The translations under genes were made by a program, and so were the position numbers. A model generated the notes under the pieces. It searched no databases. It saw only the letters and a list, made by a program, of their open reading frames with translations, and was not told where the DNA came from. From a virus, in IMG/VR virus record IMGVR_UViG_3300046458_000056, positions 1-21,749 of that record: a DNA stretch of 21,749 nt; one strand, written 5' to 3'. This document shows, piece after piece, positions 4,564 to 10,342 of the stretch (positions within the stretch are counted from its first letter, which is position 1; each line of letters begins with the position of its first letter).

Positions 4564-5139
4564 TCAGGCGGCGGGCCGAATGCGGCCGGCGCGCTGTGCC
4601 AAGGTTTGCTGCAAGCGTTCGATCTGCGCATACAGCGTTGGCAGGTCACCGTCATTCACCAGCACTAGGTCATCCTTGTGCAGTGATACGCCGGCTTCGC
4701 TCGCATGTGGATTGACTTTCGGTGCGTCGGACCGCTGCAAGTGGACGATCACGCCGCCGTGCTGCCGAATGAAGTCGGCTTCGTTCTCGAACCGGACGTC
4801 GCTGATTACAAAGTTGGGCGTTTCCCACGTACCGGACGCGCTTGCCTCAAGACGTTGTTGGGTCAGATCAAGCCAGAGGTTTGCACTGATCATGTGACGG
4901 CCCCACTCGGTGCCGAGCAGCTGCATTAGTTGACGTGGTGAACGGCCCAGCCACGCAATCGGCTGCTCCTTTTTCTCACCCTCGAAGTCCCCTGGCTCGA
5001 GTTGGAACATCGACATCAGCGCGTCGCGAATGGGGTCTGCGAAGGCGTAGCACTCGAAACCGTGCTCCAGCACCAGGTGTTGAGCAGTCGTGGTTTTGCC
5101 TGTGCGTGCAGGGCCGGTCAAACCGATAAAGAGATTCAT
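4564..5139 (-). CDS. Deoxynucleoside monophosphate kinase
   Basis: The 191-residue protein starts with a P-loop (GLTGPARTGKTT, residues 6-17, Lys15), followed by a dNMP-kinase type FADPIRDAL segment and a later FVISDVRFENEADFI strand-helix. These match phage deoxynucleotide monophosphate kinases related to T4 gene 1, which phosphorylate dNMPs to dNDPs for phage DNA synthesis. Length fits small phage members. The ATG at 5139 has a GGGGAGG site upstream and overlaps the previous stop (ATGA). It is the only clearly metabolic gene in the leftward operon. Confidence 0.88.
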   Translation of the reverse strand: MNLFIGLTGPARTGKTTTAQHLVLEHGFECYAFADPIRDALMSMFQLEPGDFEGEKKEQPIAWLGRSPRQLMQLLGTEWGRHMISANLWLDLTQQRLEASASGTWETPNFVISDVRFENEADFIRQHGGVIVHLQRSDAPKVNPHASEAGVSLHKDDLVLVNDGDLPTLYAQIERLQQTLAQRAGRIRPAA

Positions 5140-5333
5140 GCTGCGTCACCTCCCCAAGGCCCCAGGTCGGTGGTTGCGTTGGTAGGGGCAGGGATTGCGG
5201 TCGCGAAGCTCTTTGCGCCCGGGACAATCAGCAGCATGCCGGTGCGGCTCTGAATGCTGGCAATCGCTTGGGGCTTGGAAGAAAGGGCCGGGTGGATGTA
5301 CACCCGGCAAGGTGTTGCGTGCTGTGCTGTCAT
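5136..5333 (-). CDS. Hypothetical protein, first gene of the leftward operon
   Basis: The 65-residue protein begins MTAQHATPCRVYIHPALSS. It has no membrane helix or recognisable domain; a short hydrophobic stretch (GMLLIVPGA) is too small to span a membrane. I recall similar small proteins in Pseudomonas prophages without function. The ATG at 5333 lies about 28 bases after the predicted PL start site, and a CTCTCACCAC element lies in that leader. The ribosome site is weak (GGGCATAACG). The stop overlaps the kinase start. Confidence 0.7.
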   Translation of the reverse strand: MTAQHATPCRVYIHPALSSKPQAIASIQSRTGMLLIVPGAKSFATAIPAPTNATTDLGPWGGDAA

Positions 5334-5344
5334 CGTTATGCCCT

Positions 5345-5367: not shown

Positions 5368-5396
5368 ACAATACAATACGTATTTGACCTTATCAA
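5368..5396 (-). promoter_or_regulatory. Leftward early promoter PL
   Basis: On the minus strand TTGATA (5396-5391) and TATTGT (5373-5368) are 17 bases apart, a strong sigma-70 match. One operator covers the -10 and another overlaps the -35, so CI or Cro binding should shut off the integrase operon. Confidence 0.8.
5370..5384. promoter_or_regulatory. Operator OL1 (CI/Cro site)
   Basis: AATACAATACGTATT matches the 15-bp dyad AATACAANTTGTATT at 12 of 14 arm positions and overlaps the PL -10. Its centre is 25 bp from that of OL2. Confidence 0.7.
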
Positions 5397-5409
5397 TACA
5401 ATTTGTATT
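5395..5409. promoter_or_regulatory. Operator OL2 (perfect dyad)
   Basis: AATACAATTTGTATT is a perfect 7+1+7 palindrome, the best copy in the window, touching the PL -35. It defines the consensus used for the other operators. Confidence 0.75.
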
Positions 5410-5436
5410 TTTATTGATTCCAGCGGGTATTGGCCC

Positions 5437-5685
5437 TCATTCGCCTGGAGTTATGAACCAGGAAACGAGATAGCTTCCGTCCTCCCGCTGCTTGATAGAT
5501 ACGCCCTCTGCGTCACGGATTTCTCCCACCAACCGCTCCCAATTCGAGCGGGCTTCGCCAGGCTCTGGTTTGATAATCGCCTGATGATCAATCTGAGATT
5601 TAGGGCTGCTGATTACGGCTTGGATGCGTTGGGCAAGCGCCACGTATCCGCCGTGTTGTGGTTGCTCTGGGGTCCAACTACTCAA
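5437..5685 (-). CDS. DUF1654 family protein under LexA control
   Basis: The 82-residue protein starts at a TTG (5685) seven bases after a perfect AGGAGG, the only good start downstream of the LexA box. It contains ALAQRIQAVISSPKSQ, a WERLVGEIRDAEGV segment and a DGSYLVSW ending, which match the Pseudomonas DUF1654 family (typical pattern RVQxIINxPKAQ, WxxVLEEI, DGSVxVxW). Function is unknown; I recall DUF1654 genes among LexA targets in P. aeruginosa. It lies between cI and PL, the place of rexAB in lambda, and no clear terminator separates it from PL and the leftward operon. Confidence 0.85.
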   Translation of the reverse strand: MSSWTPEQPQHGGYVALAQRIQAVISSPKSQIDHQAIIKPEPGEARSNWERLVGEIRDAEGVSIKQREDGSYLVSWFITPGE

Positions 5686-5700
5686 AATGAAACCTCCTTT

Positions 5701-5720
5701 TACTGTTTTTATATACAGTA
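5701..5720. promoter_or_regulatory. LexA (SOS) box
   Basis: TACTGTTTTTATATACAGTA has both CTGT and ACAG arms with an 8-bp A/T spacer and matches the SOS box consensus fully. It overlaps the promoter of the DUF1654 gene and lies 16 bp upstream of its start. Binding of host LexA should keep the gene off until DNA damage. Confidence 0.9.
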
Positions 5721-5743
5721 TTCTGGGATCCATTTGACTGCAA
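5715..5743 (-). promoter_or_regulatory. SOS promoter of the DUF1654 gene
   Basis: TTGCAG (5743-5738) and TACTGT (5720-5715) are 17 bases apart on the minus strand, and the -10 forms one end of the LexA box. An alternative -10 (TATAAA) lies inside the box. In either case LexA would block it. Confidence 0.65.
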
Positions 5744-5797
5744 TAGGCGACGAGCGGTCCGGCAGTGAACCGTGCGTATTTCCTACGCATGAAGACG

Positions 5798-5822
5798 AAA
5801 AAAAACCCTGCTGGGCAGGGTT
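5798..5822 (-). terminator. Intrinsic terminator of the cI gene
   Basis: An 8-bp stem AACCCTGC/GCAGGGTT with a three-base loop is followed on the minus strand by eight T residues. It lies 20 bases past the cI stop and isolates cI transcription from the SOS gene downstream. A second small hairpin (TGCGTA/TACGCA) lies at 5773-5789. Confidence 0.85.
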
Positions 5823-5842
5823 CTATGTCTTCGAGGGCGACT

Positions 5843-6484
5843 TCACAAAGCCATTTTCGCCTGGCTGACTACACCGATAAGTCGACACTGTTCTGTGACA
5901 GGGATCAGCGGATACGCGGGGTTGAGGGCTTTTAGAAAGTAGTGGCCAGAGTCCTCAATGAGCTTCTTGAACGTCGCTTCATTGCTTTCAGGTAGCTTAG
6001 CGATGATGAGCTTTCCTGGCGTGGGCTCAATGCCAGTATCCACCAAGATCAGCATGCCTTCTGAAACGCTTTGCCCAACCTGCGATGTCATCGAATCGCC
6101 ACGAACCTTCAACCAAAAGGCTGGGCCTTTGGCTTTGTAATCAGTGACTTCGAATTCGTCCGCTGCGCCAGGCTCGTAAGGTTCTGTGGCTTCGGCCCAT
6201 TCGCCCGCGCTGACCCAGCTGATTACTGGATATCGATAGAGGCGATCCGGCGGAGCAACAGTTGACGGTGGGGGAATTTCCGGCGTTTCAGGGACGATTA
6301 TCGCTAGCCCTGGAACGCCTAGGACGGCGAGCAGCTTGTTGATCATCTCAAGCTTGGGCTCACGTTTTCCATTCAGCCAGTGTCCCACCGCGCCCTGTGT
6401 GACGCCCAGCCGTTCGGCCATCTGCTCCTGGCTGATGTCCTGGGCTTCCATGATTTTCTTGACTACTTCATACCATTCGCTCAT
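5843..6484 (-). CDS. cI: CI-type phage repressor with S24 self-cleavage domain
   Basis: The 213-residue protein has an N-terminal helix-turn-helix (residues 19-43, QEQMAERLGVTQGAVGHWLNG) and a C-terminal LexA/CI-like S24 domain. The cleavage site is Ala93-Gly94 (WVSAGEW), the nucleophile Ser131 (VRGDSM) and the general base a Lys near 173 (ATFKKL). RecA-stimulated self-cleavage would induce the prophage. The ATG at 6484 has no ribosome site, and a good -10 lies seven bases upstream, so the mRNA is probably leaderless as in lambda PRM. An in-frame opening reaches 6559 but would run through the operators. It faces Cro and is followed by a strong terminator. Confidence 0.95.
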   Translation of the reverse strand: MSEWYEVVKKIMEAQDISQEQMAERLGVTQGAVGHWLNGKREPKLEMINKLLAVLGVPGLAIIVPETPEIPPPSTVAPPDRLYRYPVISWVSAGEWAEATEPYEPGAADEFEVTDYKAKGPAFWLKVRGDSMTSQVGQSVSEGMLILVDTGIEPTPGKLIIAKLPESNEATFKKLIEDSGHYFLKALNPAYPLIPVTEQCRLIGVVSQAKMAL

Positions 6485-6491
6485 GCCCAAA

Positions 6492-6519
6492 ATAATACAG
6501 GGTGTATTGTTATGGGCAA
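6492..6519 (-). promoter_or_regulatory. Promoter of cI (PRM-like), leaderless
   Basis: TTGCCC (6519-6514) and TATTAT (6497-6492) are 16 bases apart, and the ATG starts seven bases after the -10, at the expected transcription start. An operator overlaps the -10, suggesting autoregulation. Confidence 0.55.
6494..6508. promoter_or_regulatory. Operator OR-a beside cI
   Basis: AATACAGGGTGTATT matches the dyad in six of seven arm pairs. It covers the proposed cI -10, so occupancy would repress cI itself. Confidence 0.65.
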
Positions 6520-6534
6520 TCGACAGACTGTATT
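6520..6534. promoter_or_regulatory. Operator OR-b (half site)
   Basis: The right arm CTGTATT is intact but the left arm keeps only ACAG. Its centre is 26 bp from OR-a and 33 bp from OR-c. It may be a weak or cooperative site. Confidence 0.4.
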
Positions 6535-6540
6535 GAGAGC

Positions 6541-6569
6541 TTGCATGAAAAAAATACAAAGCGTATTGT
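6541..6569 (+). promoter_or_regulatory. Rightward early promoter PR (cro)
   Basis: TTGCAT (6541-6546) and TATTGT (6564-6569) are 17 bases apart. An operator overlaps the -10 and most of the spacer. The predicted start at about 6576 gives a short leader before the cro ribosome site. Confidence 0.75.
6553..6567. promoter_or_regulatory. Operator OR-c over PR
   Basis: AATACAAAGCGTATT has five of seven arm pairs and the same AATACAA left arm as both PL operators. It covers the PR -10. Confidence 0.65.
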
Positions 6570-6595: not shown

Positions 6596-6829
6596 ATGAG
6601 CGCCCTAAGTACTGCTCGAAAGGCTGCGAATCTCACGCAGCAGGAGCTGGCTGACAAAGTCGGTCTTACACAATCGGCAATCGGACATTACGAAACGCTG
6701 CGGCGGACGCCGCGCTTGGCAGATTGCCGTCGGATCGTATCGGTGTTGAGAGCTGCAGGTGTGGATTGCAACTTGGAAACAGTTTTTCCAGCAGACGAAA
6801 TGGGCGTTGAAGCCAAGACGGCTGCTTAA
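6596..6829 (+). CDS. cro: Cro/C1-type helix-turn-helix regulator
   Basis: The 77-residue protein begins MSALSTARKAANLTQQELADKVGLTQSA..., an HTH_3/XRE fold with the recognition helix in residues 26-37 (LTQSAIGHYETL). It is divergent from cI and first behind PR, the place of Cro. The ATG at 6596 has a perfect AAGGAGG five bases upstream. It lacks the S24 domain. It should compete with CI for the shared operators and favour lytic growth. Confidence 0.9.
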   Translation: MSALSTARKAANLTQQELADKVGLTQSAIGHYETLRRTPRLADCRRIVSVLRAAGVDCNLETVFPADEMGVEAKTAA

Positions 6830-6979: not shown

Positions 6980-7468
6980 ATGAGTCGCACAGACCTTTTG
7001 CCGGACTGCGGTCCGGTCCTTTCCTTGCGCCAAGCGCTTTACCGCGCCGGGCGCGACTTCAAGGGCGGTGTCACTGCTCTTGCTTTCGAGATGGTGATCG
7101 ACAACGACGCCCTGCAGAAGAAACTCAAGCTTGATGAAGAGCGCCGCTGGTTGTCGCCGGATGAGTTGGAAGATGTAATCCGCCTGACCCGCGATCCACG
7201 TTTGCTCGATGCCTTGGTCCGTCCTGCCGGTGCCGTTTGGTACAAGCCAACACCGGTTCCAGCGACATGCGCAGCGTTGAAGGCTGTTGGCAAGCTTCTG
7301 GAGGAGTCTGGTGAGTTCGTCGCCTGCATGCACGACGGGGCCGCTGACAACGTGTGGGAGCTGCACGAAGTCATGGCTCTGGAAAAGCAGGGGATGGATG
7401 TCATCCGCGAGGTCCTCGGCATCATGGCCGGCGCCCGTCAGGCGATGGAGGCGAAAGACAATGGCTGA
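6980..7468 (+). CDS. Phage regulatory protein CII (CP76) family
   Basis: The 162-residue protein begins MSRTDLLPDCGPVLSLRQAL and contains VTALAFEMVIDNDALQKKL and WLSPDELEDVIRLTRDPRLL, which fit the phage CII/CP76 regulatory family found after cro in many Pseudomonas prophages. It probably influences the lysis-lysogeny choice or early transcription. Length is typical. I chose the ATG at 6980 because the family similarity starts there; two upstream in-frame ATGs exist. Its end overlaps the TraR-like gene by eight bases. Confidence 0.8.
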   Translation: MSRTDLLPDCGPVLSLRQALYRAGRDFKGGVTALAFEMVIDNDALQKKLKLDEERRWLSPDELEDVIRLTRDPRLLDALVRPAGAVWYKPTPVPATCAALKAVGKLLEESGEFVACMHDGAADNVWELHEVMALEKQGMDVIREVLGIMAGARQAMEAKDNG

Positions 7469-7664
7469 TGAAGTCGATATCGCCAATGATTACGCCCAGC
7501 GCATGCTTGATGGCGCCTTGCAGCAGCGTGCAATTCGGCCGGTTCGCGCCAGCGCCCAGTTCTGCGCAGACTGCGATGATCCGATCCCGTCTCTCCGTCG
7601 CCAGTTGGTTCAGGGTTGCGATACCTGTGTTGACTGCCAGGGGTTGCGGGAGCGGCGTAAATGA
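7461..7664 (+). CDS. TraR/DksA-family C4 zinc finger protein
   Basis: The 67-residue protein has a short N-terminal helix (EVDIANDYAQRMLDGAL) and a C-terminal zinc finger with C35-x2-C38 and C56-x2-C59, plus PIPSLRR between them, as in phage and plasmid TraR proteins. TraR binds the secondary channel of RNA polymerase and mimics DksA with ppGpp. Length is close to TraR (about 73). It overlaps the CII gene by eight bases and the primase gene by four (ATGA), so it is translated as part of the early rightward operon. Confidence 0.88.
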   Translation: MADEVDIANDYAQRMLDGALQQRAIRPVRASAQFCADCDDPIPSLRRQLVQGCDTCVDCQGLRERRK

Positions 7665-10342
7665 CCAAAGCCTCGAACCCAAGCAGTACAGCAGTATGGG
7701 CTCGGCGATACATTGAAACCTTCAACCTGGCTCTGGTCGCAATCGAGCCGGGTGAGAAGGCGCCGAAGGGAATGGGCTGGAACCAGCCGGGTGGGTACTT
7801 TACGGACCCGGCGAAAGCAGAAGCATTCTGGAACTCACATCCTGGGCACAACCTCGGTGTCGTGCTTGGGCCGAGCCGTGTCTGCTCGCTAGACGTGGAT
7901 GATGTTGAGTACACCCGCGTGGTGCTGGCCGATCTCCTGGGTCTGGATGTCGACGCCATGGCGGTCGCGTATCCGACCGTGGTTGGTAATCCGGCTCGTT
8001 TCCGCGTCCTGTTTGCGATGCCTGATGGTATCGATCTCTCCCGTCATTCTCTCGCGTGGCCAAACCCGAATGATCCTGATGGGTCGATCTACAAATCGTG
8101 GTCAACCAAGGCCAATGAGGCGAAAAAGGCCGGAGAATTTGACCGCGAGAAACTGTACCGCGCCGAGGCGCAGAAGTACTCACGCATCACTGTGTTCGAG
8201 CTGCGGGCCGGAGGCGTGCAGGACGTATTGCCGCCGTCGATCCATCCCGGAACGGGGCAGCCCTACGCATGGCGTACGGCGCCATCCGCCGAAGGTCTGC
8301 CAGTGCTGGACAGTCAACTGCTGGACGTCTGGCGGAACTGGGACATCTTCAAGCGTGATGCCGAGGCTGCGTGCCCATGGGCGCCACGGATCGAACAGCC
8401 GAAGCCCAAGCAGAAGACTGCAAGCCCATCCGTGCCTACCGGTAAGGGGCCGTCCGTCATTGATGAGTTCAACCGGTGTCATGACGTGGAGGCGCTGCTG
8501 AAGGCGAACGGCTACATCCGGCGCGGCAGAAAGTGGCTGTACGCTCAGTCAAGTACTGGCCTGCCGGGGATTACCGTTACCGACGGCAAAGTGTACTCCC
8601 ACCACGGCGCAGACCCCTTGGCGAACGGACATCAAAACGATGCGTTCGAGGTGTACTGCCTGCTGGAGCACGGCGGGGATCAATTGCGGGCGGTGAAGGA
8701 AGCTGCCCGCCTTTTGGGTATGCAGACTTCACGCACAGTTTCTCCTGATCTTCCCCCGGCCCCATCACCCGAACCGGCCGCGCTGGATAGCGATGCGGCG
8801 GCGGCTCCTGCCGATTCCGGGGGGGCGGGGGAGGAGTTGAAGTTGGACCAGGTGCTCCGTCGGTTTGCTTTGGTCGAGGGCACGACGCAGGTATGGGACA
8901 CCGACAAAGCCAGGGTGATGAAGAAGTCAGCATTCGAGGCGCTGGTAGGCAAGACCCAGGCAAAAGAGTGGCTCGAGAACACCGGCAAGAAGCTGATCGC
9001 TGATGACCAAGTGAGGGAATTCGAGCAGGCCAAGAAAATGGCGGGCAAGAAGGGCGGCGCGTTTGGGATGGCGCCTGTTGAGCGGTACGTGTACATCGAC
9101 GGCACGAAGGACGTCTGGGACCGTGAGAAGAAACGTCGCGTGCCGGAAGGCGCCGTGAAGATGGCGCTGGGCGATGCGTACGCTTTGTGGCTTAACAGCG
9201 TAGAGCGGCGCGTTGTGGATGTAGATCACATCGTGTTCGATCCGACCATGACTAAAGATCCGTCGGTGTACATCAACACGTTCGAGGGGTTGCCGCTGCA
9301 GCCTGTTGATGATGACGAAGCGTGCGCGAACTTGCGTTGGCTAATCGCCTTCCTGTGCAACCATGATGAAGGCGCGACCCAATGGTTGACGCGCTGGCTT
9401 GCTTTCCCGCTTCAGCACCTCGGCGCGAAGATGGATACCGCCGTACTGATGCACTCGACCATGGAAGGCTCGGGTAAAAGTCTTCTGTTCGCCGATACCT
9501 TCGGCGCGTTGTACGGCCAGTACGCCGCGACTGTGGGGCAGACCCAGCTGGAGAGCAATTTCAACGCCTGGCAAAGCCGCAAGCTCTGGTCGGTCTTCGA
9601 GGAGGTCGTGAGCCGTGACCAGCGTTACAACCAGGTCGGCAAGATCAAGCACCTGGTCACTGGCAAAACGGTGCGTATGGAATCGAAGTTCATCAACGGT
9701 TGGGAGGAATCCAACCACATGAACGCGGTGTTCCTCAGCAACGAGATCCTGCCGTGGCCAATCAGTGACAGCGACCGGCGCATGCTGGTGATGTGGCCGA
9801 TGGAAACGCTACCGGTAGCTAGACAGAAGGCGATCGGTCAGGAGTTAAAAAGCGGTGGCGTTGCGGCGTTGTACGGCTGGTTGTTGCGGGTAGACCTCGG
9901 CGATTTCGATCAGCGCACACGCCCGCCCAGTACGCAGGCGCGGGAGCGTCTGGTCGCGCTCAGTCGGGCCGGGTGGCAGACCTTCCTGCAGCTGTGGCGC
10001 ATTGGTGAGCTTGGCAAAGACCTTTGGGGTATGTGTCTCACCAGCGACCTGTACGCGCTGTTCATTGAGTGGTGCCACCGCAACAAGGAGCACTCGATGA
10101 GCCAGACGAAGTTCTCTCTGTTCCTAAGTTCCGAGGTTGAGAAATCGCGTTCGATACCGTGGACCGAGGGTAACAATCGCAAGTTCGGAGCGTTCTTCTT
10201 CCCTGAAGATCCGGATGCTTCCCTCGCCCCATCGCTGAAGGCGGCCGACCTGGGCAAGGCGGTCGAGGCCTGGCGAGCAAAGGCCAAGTTGGCCGGCTGG
10301 AATGTGGAGTCGTGGGATCACGTCAAGGCGGCTGCAGCATGA
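7661..10342 (+). CDS. Bifunctional primase-polymerase/helicase (replication protein)
   Basis: The 893-residue protein joins an N-terminal archaeo-eukaryotic Prim-Pol domain (residues about 10-235) to a D5/DUF5906-type superfamily 3 helicase. Prim-Pol signs are LDVDD (Asp78, Asp80) and FELRAGGVQDVLPPSIHPGT. After a Pro/Ala/Asp-rich linker (about 360-395), the helicase shows Walker A MEGSGKS (Lys606) and a Walker B-like WSVFEEV (Glu647-648). It should prime and unwind phage DNA at the origin. The start overlaps the zinc finger stop (ATGA). The iteron-like repeats just downstream could be its origin. Confidence 0.93.
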   Translation: MTKASNPSSTAVWARRYIETFNLALVAIEPGEKAPKGMGWNQPGGYFTDPAKAEAFWNSHPGHNLGVVLGPSRVCSLDVDDVEYTRVVLADLLGLDVDAMAVAYPTVVGNPARFRVLFAMPDGIDLSRHSLAWPNPNDPDGSIYKSWSTKANEAKKAGEFDREKLYRAEAQKYSRITVFELRAGGVQDVLPPSIHPGTGQPYAWRTAPSAEGLPVLDSQLLDVWRNWDIFKRDAEAACPWAPRIEQPKPKQKTASPSVPTGKGPSVIDEFNRCHDVEALLKANGYIRRGRKWLYAQSSTGLPGITVTDGKVYSHHGADPLANGHQNDAFEVYCLLEHGGDQLRAVKEAARLLGMQTSRTVSPDLPPAPSPEPAALDSDAAAAPADSGGAGEELKLDQVLRRFALVEGTTQVWDTDKARVMKKSAFEALVGKTQAKEWLENTGKKLIADDQVREFEQAKKMAGKKGGAFGMAPVERYVYIDGTKDVWDREKKRRVPEGAVKMALGDAYALWLNSVERRVVDVDHIVFDPTMTKDPSVYINTFEGLPLQPVDDDEACANLRWLIAFLCNHDEGATQWLTRWLAFPLQHLGAKMDTAVLMHSTMEGSGKSLLFADTFGALYGQYAATVGQTQLESNFNAWQSRKLWSVFEEVVSRDQRYNQVGKIKHLVTGKTVRMESKFINGWEESNHMNAVFLSNEILPWPISDSDRRMLVMWPMETLPVARQKAIGQELKSGGVAALYGWLLRVDLGDFDQRTRPPSTQARERLVALSRAGWQTFLQLWRIGELGKDLWGMCLTSDLYALFIEWCHRNKEHSMSQTKFSLFLSSEVEKSRSIPWTEGNNRKFGAFFFPEDPDASLAPSLKAADLGKAVEAWRAKAKLAGWNVESWDHVKAAAA

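Follow-up and report, generated by a model that had tools for sequence, protein, structure and literature searches.

Two SOS inputs are encoded in the immunity region of the prophage in this window (the whole stretch of DNA analysed, an IMG/VR virus record of 21,749 bases), one through a self-cleaving type of CI repressor and the other through a DUF1654 gene that is almost certainly regulated by LexA. LexA control is a near-universal rule of the DUF1654 family, so that the control proposed in the earlier note is borne out by a box and a spacing found nearly family-wide, but is a property of the family and not peculiar to this prophage. The family-wide LexA rule, the placing of the Pseudomonas putida gene PP3901 in DUF1654, and the two-input layout are the new elements of this analysis.

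The DUF1654 gene occupies positions 5437–5685 on the minus strand, with a TTG start at 5683–5685 and a stop codon at 5437–5439, and encodes 82 amino acids. The product matched the Pfam profile PF07867 (E = 1.1e-15, 57.5 bits vs a gathering score of 27) and phrog_2707 in PHROGs (E = 1.5e-18). A longer open reading frame is possible from an ATG at 5790; we placed the start at the TTG, because close relatives of the gene all start at that position, 15 nt past the SOS box and mostly with ATG. The ribosome binding site AGGAGG (5693–5698, minus strand), 7 nt before the TTG, is also kept in relatives. Gene, start codon and ribosome site are therefore as first described.

The putative LexA (SOS) box, TACTGTTTTTATATACAGTA at 5701–5720, ends 15 nt upstream of the DUF1654 start. 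It is the only sequence in the window with three or fewer mismatches to TACTGTATATATATACAGTA, where none was expected from 100 dinucleotide shuffles, and the only CTGT-N8-ACAG; it scores 18/20, and the next best 20-mer in the window scores 14. The box had been called perfect, which holds for the outer TACTGT/ACAGTA arms but not for the centre, which is not palindromic. On the minus strand, TTGCAG (5738–5743) and TACTGT (5715–5720), separated by 17 nt, form a putative promoter (5715–5743) in which the second hexamer is the first arm of the box. This pair was not listed by a consensus promoter scan of the window. Relatives diverge in the stretch from the terminator to the box, yet most of them retain the box itself, a TTG placed 17 nt ahead of its first TACTGT arm, and the ribosome site. 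The pair is likely to be the promoter of the DUF1654 gene, and we infer the proposed overlap of box and promoter from the kept TTG. A unique box at the promoter, as defines members of the LexA regulon, is thus found at this gene (18/20, none expected).

To see how far this arrangement extends, we collected relatives on the basis of their similarity to DUF1654, taking them from phage records, viral contigs and Pseudomonas genomes; a few came in through cI, yebG or a primer sequence, and the box was never used to choose them. Boxes were then counted as CTG-N10-CAG scoring at least 14/20. In the first 1.07 Mb of loci, 171 of 173 boxes immediately preceded a DUF1654 domain, and none of the upstream regions of 1,898 other open reading frames held one. 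The final set of 1.33 Mb had a box at 241 of 248 DUF1654 domains, with 213 of 222 boxes at DUF1654 and nine elsewhere; two of these nine appear to belong to a DUF1654 gene all the same, one that a frameshift has broken up in L045 and one truncated by the contig end in L222. After removal of 90% redundancy, 100 of 106 DUF1654 genes kept the box at its upstream position. The six remaining genes comprise two second genes of tandem pairs and four that keep decayed boxes, for example TACTGTATGTATATACATAA in L138. The distance from box to start was 11–20 nt in 157 of 198 cases, longer values coming mostly from phages of the P54 type, in which a single SOS box is shared by two DUF1654 genes in divergent orientation (L006:3563-4210). 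LexA control is strongly supported because the box and the 11–20 nt spacing are kept across nearly the whole family.

Among the genomes sampled, only those of Pseudomonadaceae had members of the family. In one Pseudomonas group, 102 of the 119 genomes carried DUF1654, and in the wider family 31 of 99 did. When 274 genomes were drawn from the class, DUF1654 occurred only in the Pseudomonas genome used as the centre of the draw. Phage records with DUF1654 were those of Pseudomonas phages, plus two without a name. One genome (G433, L209) gave at least seven matches to DUF1654, some of them near one another, and tandem pairs were seen in other genomes as well (L186, L188).

In the window, the DUF1654 gene lies within an immunity region of recognisable layout. 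The cI gene (5843–6484, minus strand) encodes HTH_3 and Peptidase_S24 domains; from knowledge of LexA and CI, we take the Ala-Gly of VSAGEW (SAGE) to be the cleavage site, and GDSM and TFKK to contain the catalytic Ser and Lys, respectively. A terminator scan placed an intrinsic terminator at 5802–5824 (minus strand), after cI and ahead of the DUF1654 promoter; in most close relatives this position likewise has a GC hairpin followed by a T run. Directly past the DUF1654 stop codon are two operator-like repeats of the AATACAxxxxGTATTG type in the left promoter region (5370–5410), kept in relatives, followed by the first gene of the leftward operon (5136–5339, minus strand; phrog_13491, function unknown). 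More such repeats occupy the cI–cro gap (6491–6569), again as in relatives, and on the plus strand lie a Cro-like gene (6596–6829, HTH_3) and a CII-like gene (6980–7468; Phage_CP76, PF06892, E = 8e-13). Further along, a Prim-Pol and DUF5906 primase-polymerase (7661–10342) is likely to be a replication gene of the phage. With the LexA box present and the S24 domain, Ala-Gly site and Ser/Lys pair all retained in CI, the sequence supports the earlier proposal of two SOS inputs.

The link between DUF1654 and S24 repressors is widespread. Of 80 viral loci, 79 encoded a CI with an S24-type C-terminus no more than 3.5 kb from DUF1654; the loci are not all independent and carry repressors of several kinds. 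Only two geometries occurred in these 79 loci, with DUF1654 either convergent to cI (n = 69) or downstream on the same strand (n = 10). The tree gives several lineages of DUF1654 phages, with many forks unresolved. Among annotated phages, F116, LESphi3, VW-6S, R656, zjk6, AUS531phi and D14S each have the box and an S24 CI.

PotUPM1 is the only relative examined without an S24 repressor: its repressor has 164 residues and lacks the domain (L212:2379-2873), no S24 match was found anywhere in the 35.7 kb record, and DUF1654 with its LexA box abuts the repressor gene. This layout is what a phage driven by an antirepressor, and so needing a route other than cleavage, should look like, as a single case. 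Three close relatives of the PotUPM1 repressor, fetched by cI, are S24 CIs with a box downstream; the DUF1654 gene is visible in two, and the third ends near the box. The PotUPM1 repressor also ends in a cysteine-rich tail. The same tail is found in LPPA36 (L224:2442-4175), where two SOS boxes precede two genes other than DUF1654, one with a weak GAF match; the first of the two carries the tail.

A precedent for the function of the gene comes from PP3901. PP3901 is described as a gene of a P. putida KT2440 prophage under the control of both LexA1 and LexA2, a PP3901-gfp reporter fragment from -146 to -1 was induced by nalidixic acid, and other prophage genes are reported to need PP3901 for their induction by DNA damage (Abella 2007, cited in PMC4595014). 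One IMG/VR record, IMGVR_UViG_637000222_000004, contains exact matches to three published PP3901 primers, and the gene they bracket there encodes an 86-residue DUF1654 protein (E = 1.7e-32); on this sequence evidence PP3901 belongs to DUF1654. Its box, TACTGTCTATGCATACAGTA, is 17 nt before a GTG start and inside the reporter fragment. Since PP3901 is a DUF1654 gene, one promoter of the family is known to be damage-induced and one gene of the family is reported to matter for prophage induction. This supports, by analogy, the earlier suggestion that the product may help or time induction, and we infer that the window gene could have the same role as PP3901.

Window gene and PP3901 are alike in belonging to the same Pfam family, in having a LexA box just upstream of the start, and in being carried by a prophage. 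The proteins share 36% identity over 75 residues (pairwise BLASTP, E = 8e-16). They differ in that the PP3901 promoter has, further upstream than the box, a GTAC-N4-GTGC site which we take to be the LexA2-type motif, whereas this motif is absent from the window. The neighbours also differ: PP3901 adjoins a HicAB toxin-antitoxin pair (L225:2302-3301), and its 14.7 kb locus yielded no CI, while the window gene sits beside cI.

Taken with this precedent, a role of DUF1654 in promoting induction appears reasonably probable. On balance we lean towards the window gene being a LexA-released, trans-acting helper that favours induction, most likely by weakening CI or by aiding its RecA-driven cleavage; that the protein acts directly on CI or on the RecA–CI reaction is a more tentative proposal. 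LexA would repress the DUF1654 gene from the gene's own promoter in the prophage. DNA damage would remove LexA, and the small acidic DUF1654 protein would be made alongside the RecA-driven self-cleavage of CI. It could then act in trans, by protein contact, to favour induction. The likeliest effect would be a weakening of CI, the S24 half being common to nearly all repressors beside DUF1654; alternatively, the RecA-driven cleavage of CI might be helped. The prophage would in this way read the SOS response twice, through CI cleavage and through a LexA-released helper, which may make the switch sharper or earlier. Such a helper would not be strictly needed, because the window CI looks cleavable. 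The identity to PP3901 of only 36%, the failure to find a CI in the locus around PP3901, and a fold search that returned nothing informative count against the helper reading.

Protein contact is favoured over DNA binding because DUF1654 proteins are almost all acidic (pI 4.1–5.3 in a sampled set, apart from a single protein at 7.0). In the family alignment, the invariant residues are one Arg and two Trp. The fold was predicted confidently (mean pLDDT 88.7, order H-H-E-H-E-E; the alignment for this job lacked one row, a sequence from a public phage record), and the best PDB fold matches, CtsR (Z 7.0) and ribosomal S8 (Z about 6), fall within the range of common arrangements. The fold search returned no viral match below E 0.001 and the PDB no sequence relative, so fold and sequence searches gave nothing diagnostic for DUF1654. 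PADLOC gave no match to anti-phage defence, and the literature searched describes no tested function for DUF1654 by name.

Chromosomal copies show a second setting of DUF1654, and for this reason we keep a role other than induction open. Of 53 DNVT-type host copies, 39 have a nuclease gene immediately downstream in the same orientation (33 of endonuclease I type, PF04231, E = 1.5e-36 for an example, and six of Exo_endo_phos type). The nucleases have an apparent signal peptide and mostly follow after short gaps. SOS box, DUF1654 and secreted nuclease appear to form an operon in L170:2432-3397 and 38 other genomic loci, and an SOS-controlled secreted DNase is likely in many Pseudomonas species. 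PA3414, which is damage-induced and lies beside a YebG-like gene (PMC1250226), was considered as a chromosomal DUF1654 gene and dropped; yebG and DUF1654 were far apart in sampled genomes. PA2288 was likewise not identified as a DUF1654 gene.

The host copies before secreted nucleases count against the helper reading, as the role of the protein may exceed prophages. DUF1654 could instead be a general SOS effector, such as a host nuclease inhibitor or damage-survival factor, which prophages picked up together with its LexA promoter and which protects the damaged cell or phage DNA without acting on the CI switch. A small acidic protein encoded before a nuclease gene is a classical inhibitor arrangement, and the presence of DUF1654 in most genomes of the one Pseudomonas group also fits a general effector. 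Against this, a nuclease gene follows none of 108 viral and none of 78 other genomic DUF1654 copies, viral copies hold a fixed place near cI, and it is a prophage copy, PP3901, that is reported to be required for induction of prophage genes. We regard such an effector as unlikely. About equally doubtful is a broader version of the helper, in which DUF1654 is a Pseudomonadaceae-wide SOS protein acting on the S24 module of LexA and CI, or on the RecA filament that cleaves them, with prophages keeping private copies beside cI that couple their exit to LexA directly. If true, one protein could trigger several prophages at once.

The box might also matter mainly as a start point of transcription, the LexA promoter feeding RNA polymerase into the leftward early operon after the loss of LexA and the DUF1654 protein being secondary. 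The scan reported no terminator in the short gap that separates the DUF1654 stop from the operator-like repeats (window positions 5370–5437), and in close relatives the operators follow DUF1654 at once. Convergence of DUF1654 with cI, which points it away from the left operon in 69 of the 79 viral loci, speaks against such read-through, as do the terminator-like hairpin that follows PP3901 and the possibility that CI bound to the operators blocks the polymerase; we consider it improbable. It is equally improbable that DUF1654, small, acidic and encoded beside S24 repressors, binds and stabilises LexA or CI and so dampens the response in the manner of the small phage protein gp7 of GIL01, which binds to LexA and inhibits cleavage of that repressor (PMC4551915), as DUF1654 would be made only once LexA is gone, and PP3901 is reported to be needed for induction, not to act against it.

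These results turn a domain without an assigned function, which occurs in most of the Pseudomonas genomes sampled and in many of their temperate phages, into a family wired near-universally to LexA. They connect the 2007 genetic observation on PP3901 with F116, phi297, LESphi3 and other phages in which the gene is still labelled hypothetical or DUF1654, suggest a two-input SOS switch within the immunity region, and point to SOS-controlled secreted nucleases in Pseudomonas.

LexA-controlled antirepressors are known from the Gifsy prophages (GfoA/GftA), phage 186 (Tum) and N15 (AntC), and the Gifsy repressors are not cleaved, with the antirepressor unit outside the immunity region (PMC3121763). 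The window gene resembles GfoA/GftA, Tum and AntC as a LexA-controlled small phage protein that would act on induction in trans. It differs from the Gifsy case in that its CI has S24 and the gene lies inside the cI–PL interval. A repressor lacking self-cleavage would be expected beside an antirepressor of this kind, whereas the window CI has Peptidase_S24 with its site and catalytic residues. Searches of Pfam and PHROGs profiles for kinship to Tum/DinI or the Gifsy antirepressors returned only DUF1654 and phrog_2707. We have not filed DUF1654 with Tum, GfoA/GftA and AntC, because no kinship was found in these profile searches and the repressor is of the cleavable type. DinI, like DUF1654, is small, acidic, SOS-linked and both chromosomal and phage-borne; the Pfam search of the window protein gave no DinI match. 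Lambda rex shares the cI transcript. The earlier note placed the window gene where lambda has rex, and the position agrees, with cI on one side and operator-like repeats on the other, but a rex-like linkage to cI does not hold. Pfam and PHROGs showed no sequence kinship to rexAB. The window gene thus has the map position of rexAB, between cI and PL, and differs in being cut off from cI by the terminator at 5802–5824 and in having a probable LexA promoter of its own.
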